Positions 21,276-27,475 of a stretch of DNA of 64,000 nt are shown piece by piece. A model generated the notes under the pieces. That model searched no databases. It was given only the letters and a program-made list of their open reading frames with translations, and had not been told where the DNA came from. Each line of letters opens with the position of its first letter. Position 1 is the stretch's first letter. A program made the position numbers and the translations under genes. Location: NCBI GenBank assembly GCA_023511995.1, contig JAIMAL010000002.1, positions 1 through 64,000 of the forward strand. The letters run 5' to 3'. Source of the DNA: Burkholderiales bacterium. GTDB lineage: Bacteria; Pseudomonadota; Gammaproteobacteria; Burkholderiales; Thiobacteraceae.

Positions 21276-21302
21276 CCGGGCTTTGTTTTGTCGCGATCCC
21301 CC

Positions 21303-22745
21303 ATGACCGTCGTCCAGGAAGGCAAACCCCACGAGCGCGTGCAGGAAGCGTTGCACGAAGTGCAGGAGCTTCTGCGCAAGGCCGAGCTCGTGGAGGGGCT
21401 CGTCCACAAACAGGACATGCGACGGCATGAGCTGGTGGAATCCCTCGTCCACAAGCAGAACCTCGCCGCCCTACAGAAAAAGCTGGACGAGCTCCACCCC
21501 GCGGATGTGGCCTATATCCTGGAGGCGCTGCCGCTTCCCCAGCGGCTCAAGGTCTGGGACCTGGTCAAGGCCGAGCGGGACGGCGAAATCCTGCTCGAGG
21601 TTTCCGATGCGGTCCGTGAAAGCCTCATCAAGCACATGGACGCGGACGAGCTGCTCGCCGCCGCGGAAACCCTGGACACGGACGAGATCGCCGATCTGGC
21701 GCCGGACCTGCCGCAGGATGTCATCGATGAGCTGCTCGCCTCCCTCGACGTCCAGAACCGGGCCCGGCTGCAGTCGGCCCTCTCCTATGAGGAGGACCGG
21801 GTTGGCGCCCTCATGGACTTCGACATGGTGCCCATCCGCGAGGATGTCACCTTGGAGACCGCGTTACGCTACCTGCGCCGGCTGAAGGAACTGCCGGACC
21901 AGACGGACAAGCTCTTCGTGGTGAACCGGGCCAATGTGCTCAAGGGGGTGTTGCCCTTGAAACGCCTGCTCACCGAAGACCCGGAAAAAACCGTCGCCGA
22001 AGTGATGGCCGAGGATGTGGTGGTCTTCCATCCGGAGGACGATGCCCGTGAGGCGGCCCAGGCCTTCGAACGCTATGACCTGGTGACGGCGCCGGTAGTG
22101 GATGCCGAGGGCCATCTCATCGGCCGCCTGACGGTGGATGCGGTGCTCGACTTCATCCGCGAGGAATCGGAAGCCGAGAAACTCAGCCTGGCCGGTCTGC
22201 GCGAGGAGGAGGACCTGTTCGCGCCGGTGTGGAAGAGCGTGCAGAACCGCTGGACGTGGCTTGCCATCAATCTCGTCACCGCCTTCGTCGCCTCCCGCGT
22301 GATCGGGCTGTTCGAGGGCACCATCGAGAAGCTGGTGGCCCTGGCCACCTTGATGCCCATCGTCGCCGGCATCGGCGGCAATTCCGGCAACCAGACCATC
22401 ACCATGATCGTGCGCGCCATCGCCCTCGGTCAGGTCCAGGAGGAGAGCGCACGCAAACTCCTCTTCAAGGAACTGGGGGTGGCGCTGGTCAACGGCCTGT
22501 TGTGGGGATCGGTGATCGGGCTGATCGCCTGGTGGCTCTACGACAACGTGGCCCTGGGGCTGGTGATGACCGCGGCCATGACCTTGAACCTGCTGCTTGC
22601 CGCCACCATGGGCGTGCTCATCCCCCTGGTGATGCAGAAGCTGGGGCGTGACCCGGCGGTGGGATCCAGCGTCATGATCACCGCCATCACCGACAGCGGC
22701 GGCTTTTTCATTTTCCTCGGCCTCGCCACGCTCTTTTTGTTGTAA
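21303..22745 (+). CDS. mgtE: Magnesium transporter MgtE
   Basis: 480 residues. Order: N-terminal helical MgtE_N domain (LDELHPADVAYILEALPL), two CBS domains (around residues 165-285), a plug helix, then five membrane segments with the conserved IAGIGGNSGNQ-type filter sequence (here IVAGIGGNSGNQTITMIVRA) and a C-terminal AITDSGGFFIFLGLA. It is a Mg2+-gated channel/transporter of the inner membrane. The N-terminus holds a tandem internal repeat (LVEGLVHKQ then LVESLVHKQ). The start at 21303 is the first ATG after the -10 element. Confidence 0.96.
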   Translation: MTVVQEGKPHERVQEALHEVQELLRKAELVEGLVHKQDMRRHELVESLVHKQNLAALQKKLDELHPADVAYILEALPLPQRLKVWDLVKAERDGEILLEVSDAVRESLIKHMDADELLAAAETLDTDEIADLAPDLPQDVIDELLASLDVQNRARLQSALSYEEDRVGALMDFDMVPIREDVTLETALRYLRRLKELPDQTDKLFVVNRANVLKGVLPLKRLLTEDPEKTVAEVMAEDVVVFHPEDDAREAAQAFERYDLVTAPVVDAEGHLIGRLTVDAVLDFIREESEAEKLSLAGLREEEDLFAPVWKSVQNRWTWLAINLVTAFVASRVIGLFEGTIEKLVALATLMPIVAGIGGNSGNQTITMIVRAIALGQVQEESARKLLFKELGVALVNGLLWGSVIGLIAWWLYDNVALGLVMTAAMTLNLLLAATMGVLIPLVMQKLGRDPAVGSSVMITAITDSGGFFIFLGLATLFLL

Positions 22746-22798: not shown

Positions 22799-24199
22799 AT
22801 GCACTACGACCTGATCGTGATCGGCTCCGGGCCGGGGGGATACCGGTCCGCCATGCTCGCCGCCCATCACGGCCTCAAGGTCGGTATCGTGGAAAAAGGG
22901 GAATGGGGCGGTTGCGGCCTCAACCGCGGCTGTCTGCCCAAAAACGACTGGCACCACACCGCCAAACTCATCGCCGCCGCCCGCGGCTTCGCCCGCCGGG
23001 GCATTCAGGGCTCCCTCTCCATCGATCTCGCCGGCGCCTGGGAGCACCAGAAAAAACTCACCCGCGCCGTGCGCGAAACCTACATCGGCCAGATGAAGCG
23101 GCTGGGCATCGACGGCTTCGCCGCCACCGCCTCCTTCGTCGATCCCCACACCATCAGCCTGGATGGGCGCGACCGCCTCACCGCGCGTCATTTCGTCATC
23201 GCCACCGGTTCCACCCCTTACGTTCCCAAACCCTTCTTCATCACCGAACAGCGGGTGCTCACCACAGACGAACTCTTCAGCCAGCCTCCGCCGCCGGGGC
23301 GCCGGGTGGCCATCGTCGGTTCCGGGGCGGTGGCCACCGAATTCGCCTTCATCCTCAGCATGCTGGGCCGCGAAGTGGTGTGGGTGGCGCAGAACAAGCC
23401 CCTCGTCAACTCTCGTTTTTCCGCCGAAGCCCTGCAGCAGCTCTACGATCGTCTGCGGCGACACGGCATTGAAGCCCGGGTGGGGGCACGACCGGAAGCG
23501 GTGGAGATGCCTCCGGAAGGTGTGCGGCTGATCCTGGAGGGGGGTAACGATTCCGTGGTGGCGGACTGGGTGCTGCTGGGCACCGGGCGCCGTCCCCACA
23601 CCTCGGGACTGGCGCTGGATGCCGCCGGTGTCAGCACCGACAGCAAGGGTTTCATCAAGACCAACGAGTTCCTCGAAAGCTCGCAGCCCCACATCTATGC
23701 CGTCGGCGATGTGGTCAATCCCCGGATGAGTGCCAATCAGGCCCTGGCCGATGCGGCAGTGGCCGTTGCCAACATCTTAAGCCCCCGCTCGCGGACCCAG
23801 GATCGGCGCGCCGTGCCGGAGGTGATTCATTCGGCCCTGGAGCTGGGGCGCATCGGCCATACCGTGGGGAATGGAGAGGGTACGATGACTGCCACTTCCG
23901 CCTTTGCCGTCAACGTGCGGGCCATGAGCGAGGATGATGGCGACGGCTTCGTGCGTCTCATCGTCGATGCGAGGACGGGTGCCCTGACCGGCGCCGAGGT
24001 GGTGGGGGCGGAGGCGGCAGAACTCATTCACCTGCTGGCCGGCCGCTTGCACGAGCCCAATGCCCTGCGCGCTTTCGCCACCACCTTCTATGGCTACCCG
24101 ACGCGGGCGGAGAGCATCTACCAGGCGGCGCAAAGCCTCATGGCCCAGCTCAAGGCGGCGGATTGCAGCGGCCGCGAGGCCAACTCCCCCCGGGAATAA
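22799..24199 (+). CDS. Dihydrolipoamide-dehydrogenase-like flavoprotein with non-canonical redox residues
   Basis: 466 residues with the full pyridine nucleotide-disulfide oxidoreductase layout: FAD motif IVIGSGPGGYRSA, NAD(P) motif VAIVGSGAVATEFAF, second FAD motif IYAVGDVV, and a C-terminal dimerisation domain. The redox motif is GGCGLNRGCLPK (Cys39, Cys45), C-x5-C instead of the usual C-x4-C (GGTCxxxGC). The catalytic His of the C-terminal H-P-x3-E motif is replaced by Tyr433 (Y-P-T-R-A-E438). It is therefore probably not an ordinary lipoamide or glutathione reductase. No pyruvate or 2-oxoglutarate dehydrogenase genes lie nearby. Substrate unknown. Confidence 0.85.
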   Translation: MHYDLIVIGSGPGGYRSAMLAAHHGLKVGIVEKGEWGGCGLNRGCLPKNDWHHTAKLIAAARGFARRGIQGSLSIDLAGAWEHQKKLTRAVRETYIGQMKRLGIDGFAATASFVDPHTISLDGRDRLTARHFVIATGSTPYVPKPFFITEQRVLTTDELFSQPPPPGRRVAIVGSGAVATEFAFILSMLGREVVWVAQNKPLVNSRFSAEALQQLYDRLRRHGIEARVGARPEAVEMPPEGVRLILEGGNDSVVADWVLLGTGRRPHTSGLALDAAGVSTDSKGFIKTNEFLESSQPHIYAVGDVVNPRMSANQALADAAVAVANILSPRSRTQDRRAVPEVIHSALELGRIGHTVGNGEGTMTATSAFAVNVRAMSEDDGDGFVRLIVDARTGALTGAEVVGAEAAELIHLLAGRLHEPNALRAFATTFYGYPTRAESIYQAAQSLMAQLKAADCSGREANSPRE

Positions 24200-24695: not shown

Positions 24696-25211
24696 GTGGA
24701 GCTTGGCGCGCGCCTCGCGGAACACATCCCCCGTCTGCGCCGCTATGCGCGGGCGCTCACGGGGGATGCGGCGCGCGCGGACGATCTGGTGCAGGACACC
24801 CTGGAGCGGGCGCTGCGTAAACTCGCCCTCTGGCGCCCCGGCTCTGATCTGCGGGCGTGGTTGTTCACCCTCATGCACAACGTGTACATGAACCAGGTGG
24901 CAGCCGGCCGGTATCCCCTTGAGGAGTGGAATGGGGAGGCCAGCGAAGGGCCGCAGCCCGGCATCCCTCCCGCAAGCCCCCAGGAGGAAGCGCTGAGACT
25001 GCGGGATCTTGCCCGGGGTCTGGCGCGTCTTCCCCCGGAGCAGAGGGAGGTGCTGCTGCTGGTGGGCCTGGAAGGGCTGCGCTACGAGGAGGTGGCGAAA
25101 ATTCTTGGCATACCCACGGGCACGGTGATGTCCCGCCTGAGCCGGGCACGGCAGCGGTTGCAAAGTCTCATGGAAGGCGAGCGCGGGTTGAACTTGCGCC
25201 GCGTCAAGTGA
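24696..25211 (+). CDS. ECF-type RNA polymerase sigma factor
   Basis: 171 residues from a GTG with GAGAGGGGG upstream. Region 2 includes YARALTGDAARADDLVQDTL and LRAWLFTLMHN. Region 4 has LPPEQREVLLLVGLEGLRYE and the helix-turn-helix VAKILGIPTGTVMSRLSRAR. The stop overlaps the anti-sigma start (TGATG). Together with msrPQ downstream this suggests control of periplasmic protein repair by an oxidant signal; that is inferred from order. Confidence 0.93.
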   Translation: MELGARLAEHIPRLRRYARALTGDAARADDLVQDTLERALRKLALWRPGSDLRAWLFTLMHNVYMNQVAAGRYPLEEWNGEASEGPQPGIPPASPQEEALRLRDLARGLARLPPEQREVLLLVGLEGLRYEEVAKILGIPTGTVMSRLSRARQRLQSLMEGERGLNLRRVK

Positions 25212-25954
25212 TGGACGACATCAGCGAAGCGGATCTGCACGCCTACGTGGATGGGGAGCTCGATCGGCACCGGCGCCGCGAGGTGGAAGCCCATCTCGCC
25301 CGCCACCCGGAGGCCGCCCGCCGCGTGGCCACCTGGCAGGCCCAGAAAGAAGGGTTGCACGCCCTCTTCGATGGCGTGTTGGCGGAACCCCTGCCCCCCG
25401 CCCTGGAGTTCGCTTGCCGCAGGAACAGGGAAAAGCGACTTTGGGGGGCGATCGCTGCGGGCCTGTGGCTTGCGCTGGGTGTCCTTGTCGGCTGGTTTGC
25501 CCGGGGCGAAAGCCCCACGCCAAGCCTGGCAAGCCTCCCCCAGGAGGCCGCCGTGGCCCACGTGGTGTATGCGCCGGAGGTCATGCATCCGGTGGAAGTA
25601 GGCGCCGCGGAAGAGGCGCATCTTGAGAAATGGCTCTCCCGGCGCCTCAACACCCCCCTCAAGGTGCCCGATCTCACCGCCACCGGCTTCAAGCTTTTGG
25701 GCGGGCGGCTGCTGCCGGCGACGGAAGGACCGGCGGCCCAGTTCATGTACCAGGATGCGCAGGGCAGACGCCTGACCCTCTATGTGCGGGTGCTGGCGGC
25801 CGCGGCCAAGGAGACGGCCTTCCGCTACGATCATCGGGATGGCGTCGGTGTCTTCTACTGGGTGGATGGGGGTCTGGGCTTCGCCCTCTCGGGGGAACTG
25901 GAGCGGCCCCAGCTGCTCGCGGTCGCCGAGGCCGTCTACAAGCAACTCGATTGA
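25211..25954 (+). CDS. Membrane anti-sigma factor
   Basis: 247 residues: a cytoplasmic domain starting MDDISEADLHAYVDGELD and containing RREVEAHLARHPEAARRVA, one membrane segment (LWGAIAAGLWLALGVLVGWF, about residues 77-96), and a periplasmic domain of about 145 residues. It lacks the H-x3-C-x2-C zinc motif of ZAS-type anti-sigmas. The periplasmic part probably senses the signal. Translation is coupled to the sigma gene by a 1-nt overlap. Confidence 0.88.
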   Translation: MDDISEADLHAYVDGELDRHRRREVEAHLARHPEAARRVATWQAQKEGLHALFDGVLAEPLPPALEFACRRNREKRLWGAIAAGLWLALGVLVGWFARGESPTPSLASLPQEAAVAHVVYAPEVMHPVEVGAAEEAHLEKWLSRRLNTPLKVPDLTATGFKLLGGRLLPATEGPAAQFMYQDAQGRRLTLYVRVLAAAAKETAFRYDHRDGVGVFYWVDGGLGFALSGELERPQLLAVAEAVYKQLD

Positions 25955-25963
25955 AGGATCGCC

Positions 25964-26866
25964 ATGGGACACGACATTCCCCCCTCGGAAATCACCCCAC
26001 CCGATGTCTTCCGCAACCGGCGCCGTTTCCTCCTCGCCGGGGCGGCGACGCTGGCCGGTCTCGCGACGTCCGCGCAGGCAAGGCTTGCCGCCCGCCCCAG
26101 CAGTTATTCGACGACGGAGCCCCTCACCCCCTATCGGGAGGTGACCACCTACAACAACTTTTATGAGTTCGGCACGGGGAAGGAGGACCCCGCCGCGCGC
26201 GCCCACACCTTGATCACCCGCCCCTGGACGGTGAGTGTGGAGGGCCTGGTGCACAAACCGCGCATCTGGGACGTGGAAGCGCTTTTGCGCTTTCCCCTGG
26301 AGGAGCGCATCTATCGGCTGCGTTGTGTCGAGGGCTGGTCCATGGTCATCCCCTGGATCGGCTTTCCCCTTGCCCGTCTCATCCGGGAAGCGGAACCCAT
26401 GGGCTCCGCCCGCTATGTGGAGTTCATCAGTCTCCACGACCCGCGGCAGATGCCGGGTCAGCGTCTGCCCCTCCTCGACTGGCCATATCGCGAGGGGCTG
26501 CGCCTCGACGAGGCCCTGCATCCCCTCACCCTGCTGGCGGTGGGCCTGTACGGGGAGCTTTTGCCCAACCAGAACGGCGCGCCCATCCGCCTCGTGGTGC
26601 CGTGGAAATACGGTTTCAAGAGCGCCAAGTCCATCGTCCGCATCCGTCTTCAGGAACATCAGCCGGTCACCACTTGGATGCGTGCCGCCCCGGACGAATA
26701 CGGTTTCTATTCCAATGTGAATCCGGCGGTGGATCATCCCCGCTGGAGCCAGGCGCGGGAACGGCGCATCGGGGAATTCCACAAACGGCCCACCCTCCCC
26801 TTCAACGGCTATGGGGAGCAGGTGGCCCACCTCTATGCGGGCATGGACCTGCGGAAGTTTTTCTGA
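25964..26866 (+). CDS. msrP: Periplasmic methionine-sulfoxide reductase catalytic subunit MsrP (YedY)
   Basis: 300 residues. A Tat signal ([15 protein letters not shown], residues 18-32) exports the folded molybdopterin protein. The Mo-ligating cysteine is in [13 protein letters not shown], and [14 protein letters not shown] is a further family motif. It reduces oxidised methionine in periplasmic proteins, receiving electrons from MsrQ. The ribosome site AAGGA is 6 nt before the ATG. The tatABC genes needed for its export are at the other end of this window. Confidence 0.96.
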
Positions 26867-27475
26867 ATGGGCGTGCCCGCGTCGGCAGCGGCGCTGGTCG
26901 CCGCTTCCTGGTTCAAGCCCCTGGTCTTCTGCGCCACCCTGCTGCCCCTGGCAAGGCTCGTGGTGCTCGCCAAGCTGGACCGCCTGGGAGCCAACCCCAT
27001 CGAGTTCGTCACCCACTCCACCGGCACCTGGACACTGGTGTGGCTGCTGGCCACCCTCGCCCTCACGCCCCTGGCCCGGCTCACGGGTATGGCCCAGTGG
27101 CTGCGCCTGCGCCGCCTGCTGGGTCTTACGGCCTTCTTTTACGCCAGCCTCCACCTGCTCACCTATCTGTGGTGGGATCAGTTCTTCGACTGGCGGGAAA
27201 TCTGGCGGGATGTGGGCAAAAGGCCCTTCATCACCGCCGGCATGACCGCCTACGCCCTGATGCTGCCCCTGGCCGCCACTTCCACGGACGCCATGATGCG
27301 TTGCCTGGGCCGCCAGTGGCGGCGGCTGCACCGCCTCGTCTATGTCGTGGCCGCGGCGGGCTGCCTCCATTACCTGTGGCTGGTGAAAAAGGACGCAACC
27401 CAACCCCTCTTCTATAGCGCGCTGCTCGCCCTGCTTCTCGCCGCGCGCCTGTTGCCCCCGCGCCGGAGGGGGTAA
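26867..27475 (+). CDS. msrQ: Heme-binding membrane subunit MsrQ (YedZ)
   Basis: 202 residues, about five to six membrane helices. The conserved histidines lie in EFVTHSTGTWTL, FFYASLHLLTYLWW and RRLHRLVYVVAAAGCLHYLW. It passes electrons from the respiratory chain to MsrP. It starts immediately after the msrP stop. Last gene of the sigma/anti-sigma/msrPQ operon. Confidence 0.95.
   Translation: MGVPASAAALVAASWFKPLVFCATLLPLARLVVLAKLDRLGANPIEFVTHSTGTWTLVWLLATLALTPLARLTGMAQWLRLRRLLGLTAFFYASLHLLTYLWWDQFFDWREIWRDVGKRPFITAGMTAYALMLPLAATSTDAMMRCLGRQWRRLHRLVYVVAAAGCLHYLWLVKKDATQPLFYSALLALLLAARLLPPRRRG

Follow-up and report, generated by a model that had tools for sequence, protein, structure and literature searches.

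The flavoprotein gene described here lies in a window of 64,000 nucleotides (the whole stretch of DNA analysed) and appears to record the stepwise dismantling or relocation of the redox disulfide of a lipoamide-dehydrogenase-like enzyme, with the steps surviving in its relatives. Judged from sequence, the enzyme now probably passes electrons from NAD(P)H to an acceptor other than an ordinary disulfide, and the gene remains under selection. In these enzymes, the CXXXXC motif is regarded as a fixed core. Its stepwise loss can still be read in the relatives, from Thr-Cys...Cys through Cys-Cys...Cys to Cys-Gly...Cys, after which either the second cysteine or the histidine disappears, and these states form a natural series for testing the role of each thiol. 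The series bears on the change from a dithiol to a thiol-independent flavoenzyme, as presumably occurred in the soluble transhydrogenases, and the analysis also draws attention to an uncharacterised family of flavoproteins whose carriers, within the samples searched, are almost all SoxB-bearing.

Fold, class and active-site residues

The gene and its landmarks in the window are:

22799..24199, + strand: intact open reading frame of a 466-amino-acid protein with the FAD/NAD(P) disulfide-reductase fold
22823..22840, + strand: FAD dinucleotide-binding motif GSGPGG (residues 9-14), at positions at least 95% conserved in the family
22913..22933, + strand: altered redox motif C39-G40-L-N-R-G-C45, from sequence, family alignment and codons
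22943..22945, + strand: N49, where Lys is conserved outside f1 (the taxonomic family of the window genome) and N or H is found in all nine f1 members read
23318..23341, + strand: NAD(P) Rossmann motif GSGAVATE (residues 174-181), with Ala197 further on replacing the acidic NAD residue of Lpd in the alignment
24095..24112, + strand: Y433-P-T-R-A-E438 replacing H-P-x3-E, from sequence, alignment and codons

Matches to Pfam PF07992 (175.4 bits, gathering threshold 26.1) and PF02852 (47.6 bits, threshold 25.3) assign the protein to the pyridine nucleotide-disulfide oxidoreductase fold. Its AlphaFold2 model (pLDDT 90.4, pTM 0.88) finds lipoamide dehydrogenases as the best PDB matches (TM 0.88-0.90), and by tree placement the protein is a member of a lipoamide-dehydrogenase-like family. 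Assignment to a curated class fails, as the protein falls below the cut-off of every model among the best 25 of 61 matching NCBIfam models. The best of these, TIGR01350 (dihydrolipoamide dehydrogenase), gives 280.7 bits against a cut-off of 408.8, and both mercuric reductase (TIGR02053, 240.5 against 454.45 bits) and soluble transhydrogenase (NF003585, 232.7 against 465 bits) stay short as well. The same is true of the orthologues L061, L109 and L059, none of which reaches the cut-off of any of its best 25 models (292.9, 315.8 and 270.4 bits, respectively, for TIGR01350). Within the best 25 of 61 models, the curated cut-offs thus rule out an identity as E3, SthA, MerA or glutathione reductase.

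In the classical enzymes, it is the first cysteine, assisted by a histidine, that attacks the substrate disulfide; the second cysteine lies at the flavin. Alignment with Lpd, Gor and SthA of E. coli places the first cysteine at position 40, the second at 45 and the residue preceding the first at 39. The GGCGLNRGC of the window protein is a C-x5-C arrangement of Cys39 and Cys45 where Gly40 fills the canonical position of the first cysteine (codons 39-45, TGC GGC ... TGT), and Tyr433 (codon TAC) occupies the place of the catalytic His in the same alignment. Both the shifted cysteine and the Y-P-x3-E in place of H-P-x3-E had been claimed in the original prediction, and reading frame, codons and alignment uphold them. 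To our knowledge, none of the characterised CXXXXC enzymes has the C-x5-C spacing. Of the motifs that mark group one of these enzymes, the protein thus has neither the C-x4-C (C39-G40...C45) nor the His-Glu pair (Y433/E438), and of those of the soluble transhydrogenases it has YXXXXE and lacks CXXXXT. Extra cysteines were considered as replacements and rejected: beyond columns 39 and 45, no cysteine column is common to most f1 rows save column 206 (5/9), in which the window protein has none. C456, one cysteine near the C-terminus of the window protein, recurs in none of the 51 family rows.

The NAD site had further been called perfect. This holds for GSGAVATE, which is intact, and does not extend to the end of the second strand of the NAD domain, where the acidic residue of E. 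coli Lpd is Ala197 in the window protein. An acidic residue at this Lpd position favours NAD; by eye, column 197 holds no Asp or Glu among the 51 family rows.

Motif states among the orthologues

Genome searches with the window protein covered 399 genomes of the order and 369 genomes of the class and gave a match in 34 (E <= 1e-95) and 22 of them, respectively, the window's own genome being included in both counts. Altogether 55 distinct orthologue matches were obtained and 51 were read (the unread order matches are G098, G355, G394 and G273). Two rows, L068 and L116, are truncated and end before the histidine region, which is covered by the other 49. A scan of named genomes returned 32 loci and no named orthologue, since full-length matches were only 25-32% identical to the window protein; in a plasmid collection, nothing exceeded 60% identity among the matches listed (best listed 31.8%).

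In the wider family, the His-Glu pair is intact and the C-x4-C pair is ordinary, in most cases preceded by a third cysteine. The family motif can be written as GG[C/T]CLNRGC[VI]PKK...NHP...E, and the window protein is altered at C40, V46, K49, N432 and H433. Outside f1, 33 of the 42 rows show the three-cysteine state C39-C40-C45 (GGCCLNRGC; one truncated) and the remaining nine show T39-C40-C45 (GGTCLNRGC). All nine f1 members read combine Gly40 with Cys39 and are held by one clade with an SH-aLRT of 100, in a short tree search with no bootstrap, while a tenth f1 genome, G002 (98% complete), has a 35% identical paralogue only. Because C39/G40 recurs in the eight other f1 members, which share 62-76% identity with the window protein, a base-calling accident is excluded for this change. 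The simplest history of the apparent shift would be a gain of cysteine at Thr39 and a subsequent loss of Cys40 on the f1 stem, an order suggested by parsimony.

The histidine tells a different story, with Tyr433 in the window genome only (1 of the 49 rows that include the region) and His in the other 48. The orthologue of the congener G001 (L059 1501-2874), an intact open reading frame of 458 amino acids, has kept the catalytic His and reads GGCGGNRGY, with Tyr45 at the second redox cysteine. Within f1, six rows thus carry C45 and His, the window protein C45 and Tyr433, G001 Tyr45 and His, and a truncated one C45. From these states, the loss of the histidine appears to be a late, species-level step and not a trait of the family, and the disulfide machinery seems to erode differently in each species, by Tyr433 in the window genome and by Tyr45 in G001. 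A separate subfamily had been proposed from the two changes. That the protein belongs to a separate subfamily is supported, no cut-off being reached among the best 25 NCBIfam models, but this subfamily is not delimited by the two changes, as the cysteine change is f1-wide and the histidine change belongs to the window genome alone.

Selection and the fate of the redox disulfide

The gene is under purifying selection, and constraint is weakest on the side that would meet a disulfide substrate. Between the window genome and G001 its dN/dS is 0.183 (dS 0.93), and neighbouring genes give 0.057 (mgtE), 0.083 (msrP), 0.146 (rodA), 0.186 (sigma factor) and 0.271 (msrQ) for the same pair. Among g2 genes the finite values are 0.03-0.12, with two pairs of infinite dS set aside and several dS values above 1. 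Divided by domain, with borders set by us, dN/dS between the window gene and G001 rises from 0.091 (NAD) through 0.187 (FAD/central) to 0.296 (interface). Departures from 120 positions conserved in 41 non-f1 rows point the same way: 27 are found in the window protein and 29 in G001 (both g1), compared with 8-18 in seven g2 proteins (8 being a truncated row) and 0-12 of 120-125 positions in a leave-one-out control on the 41 non-f1 rows. None of the 24 NAD-domain positions is affected in either protein; of the 57 FAD/central positions 10 depart in the window protein and 15 in G001, and of the 39 interface positions 17 and 14, respectively (Fisher test, interface against the rest, p = 0.0003 for the window protein and 0.04 for G001). 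That both changes strike the disulfide chemistry, as claimed in the original prediction, is borne out in the window species: both lie in that half of the active site, and the NAD(P) domain stays the most constrained.

On balance, we lean towards an NAD(P)H:acceptor flavoenzyme that would derive from a dithiol enzyme and whose acceptor would not be an ordinary disulfide. The ancestor would have been a normal dithiol enzyme that used Cys40/Cys45 together with a His-Glu pair supplied by the partner subunit. Cysteine would first have replaced Thr39 in the window's family, giving the three-cysteine state that is now widespread, before the interchange thiol Cys40 gave way to Gly. Erosion of the disulfide side may then have continued in the window's genus, through His433 to Tyr in the window genome and Cys45 to Tyr in the sister species, with the NAD(P)H-to-FAD half-reaction presumably retained and reduced FAD passing its electrons to a non-disulfide acceptor, either directly or via a single thiol. 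From this we infer a loss of dithiol turnover and a direct transfer from FAD. The acceptor could possibly be a quinone, a metal or a persulfide, and a sulfur compound or a respiratory carrier are the first candidates because of the presence of the gene in SoxB carriers and of its dsr-linked sister paralogue.

A non-disulfide acceptor is preferred on account of the motif states and the constraint pattern given above, of the precedents of SthA, Irc15p and LpdA and of the Tyr at the His position in a MerA-like protein. SthA/UdhA resembles the window protein in its Tyr at the catalytic His (Y-x4-E), its incomplete CxxxxC and the lack of an acidic NAD residue at the aligned position; of the two cysteines, SthA retains the first and has Thr in place of the second, whereas the window protein shows the reverse. 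On the tree, SthA stands apart on a long branch of uncertain exact position. MerA shares the fold and, in the MerA-like protein of the window genome, the Tyr at the His position. MerA retains GGTCVNVGC and has a cysteine pair at its end, whereas the window protein has a single cysteine, C456, near its C-terminus. Neither of these two carriers of the Tyr, E. coli SthA and the MerA-like protein of the window genome, is a disulfide reductase by name. Compared with dihydrolipoamide dehydrogenase (E3), the window protein is alike in fold, domain order, FAD motif and C-terminal P-x3-E, and differs by the absence of the first cysteine, the catalytic His and the acidic NAD residue at 197. The gene need not serve as an E3, since the genome has an E2-E3 fusion with normal motifs as well as other homologues.

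In the parts of the literature available, transhydrogenases are described with CXXXXT and YXXXXE (PMC9460512). Yeast Irc15p and M. tuberculosis LpdA, likened here by description and not by sequence, are Lpd relatives with an incomplete redox pair: they are described there as having one cysteine or no cysteine pair and as reducing quinones or artificial acceptors in place of disulfides, and Irc15p keeps the His-Glu pair, whereas the window protein has lost its His (PMC6296175). Within the same partial view of the literature, searches on the window protein, on similar losses and on sulfur-linked Lpd found nothing on this family.

Part of the evidence speaks against such a non-disulfide acceptor. 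Cys39 is kept in all nine f1 rows, Cys45 in eight of nine and His433 in seven of the eight other rows (the eighth is truncated before that region), a pattern that fits a working dithiol in most of f1, and Cys45 is still present in the window protein itself. Alternatively, and with clearly lower probability, the lineage may have moved its redox disulfide by one residue via the surviving three-cysteine intermediate, so that Cys39/Cys45 would be a working C-x5-C pair beside FAD in a disulfide (or persulfide) reductase or oxidase. Tyr433 would then be a tolerated, weaker acid-base residue, and two sister species would later have dismantled the pair differently and kept the enzyme. The three-cysteine relatives (33 of 42 non-f1 rows) offer a path by which Cys39 could have taken over before Cys40 was lost, and the change is fixed across a clade in which the finite g2 dN/dS values are low. 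However, the residue preceding the first cysteine contacts FAD in the classical enzymes, so its side chain may miss Cys45, and Cys45 has been lost in G001 and His in the window genome with both genes still constrained.

Catalytic decay under relaxed selection, with the gene losing its function in genus g1 and residual or structural constraint left, is an unlikely explanation. Different catalytic residues are gone in the two g1 species read, their departures are as many as 27 and 29, and their dN/dS of 0.18 exceeds the g2 values, which may mean partial decay and tells against our preferred acceptor reading, as do the 15 of 57 FAD/central departures in G001, where erosion is not confined to the interface. 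Yet both reading frames are intact (466 and 458 amino acids), 0.18 lies within the range of the five neighbour genes (0.057-0.271), and the NAD domain is free of departures in both species with a dN/dS of 0.09. Finally, it is most improbable that only the cysteine change is real and Tyr433 a sequencing or assembly error: TAC is one transition from a His codon and Tyr is seen in one genome only, but conserved residues nearby in the 432-442 segment differ as well (N432G and N442Q, common to the window protein and G001, and E439S, where G001 has Ala), which argues for a segment truly changed in the genus.

Gene neighbourhood, paralogues and sulfur oxidation

Two further genes matter for the context:

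21288..22745, + strand: mgtE-like magnesium transporter gene (named by eye), directly upstream with a 53 bp gap
G000:C10:24890-26251 (L157 9792-11261), window genome: Lpd-like paralogue in a dsr cluster, with canonical C-x4-C (GGNCLNLGC) and SHPSWCEE

Regions were fetched around 30 of the 55 orthologue matches, with gene calls that are rough in high-GC contigs. An mgtE-like homologue is found upstream in the same orientation in 15 of them (13/18 in the window's own order, 2/12 elsewhere in the class) and is the sole recurrent neighbour; the other regions show purM/purN/DUF3108-like or further housekeeping genes (by eye). Gene context was rejected as a guide to function, as the mgtE-like gene alone recurs. 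The proposed survey of homologues and their context thus paid off in its first half, where the relatives explain the motif, and gave no functional lead in its second.

A clearer association is found with SoxB, which is present in 33 of 34 carriers of the gene in the order sample and in 152 of the 365 other genomes (Fisher p = 3.7e-11, with no correction for kinship). The counts lack phylogenetic independence, as one genus supplies 12 of the 34 carriers, and the single order carrier that lacks SoxB, G009, is 66% complete. At class level, SoxB was found in 18 of 20 carriers tested (out of 21; the class-level test covered carriers only). In a comparison of tested carriers with genomes that lack the gene, SoxB occurs in 48/50 against 14/30 and dsrB in 21/50 against 6/30; dsrB was rejected as a linked trait, its association being weaker. 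SoxB is also common in genomes without the window gene. A role in thiosulfate oxidisers is suggested by this association but not proved.

Lpd-like genes other than the window family have been linked to sulfur-oxidation clusters in archaea and bacteria, and the accessible part of that work suggests that such enzymes could move electrons from sulfane sulfur to NAD+ (PMC4175335). The dsr-linked paralogue of the window genome adjoins dsrMK-L-JOP-N-R-like genes (by eye), with dsrB on the same contig about 10 kb off. It is 34% identical to the window protein and, unlike it, has normal motifs. On the tree, for which 7 of 14 such loci were used, the dsr-linked paralogues are the sister group of the window family. 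Neighbours resembling dsrN and dsrR also stand beside the paralogue in a g2 genome (L161). By eye, an Aquificota relative (L001) has no adjoining sulfur gene.

The homologues in the window genome, named by eye, are this paralogue, the MerA-like protein and the E2-E3 fusion. In the last (L034, G000:C5), a single open frame joins an E2-type protein, which has two lipoyl-like stretches, to a complete E3 (GGECLWRGC, HPTQTE).

Downstream of the window gene, positions 24696-27475 hold an ECF-type sigma factor, a putative anti-sigma factor and MsrP/MsrQ-like genes (by eye). All or part of this set also follows the orthologue in L123, L124, L125 and L151 within f1 and in L131, L136 and L137 outside it. 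In one class-level genome (L140), a rhodanese-like gene (by eye) lies downstream of the orthologue on the same strand.
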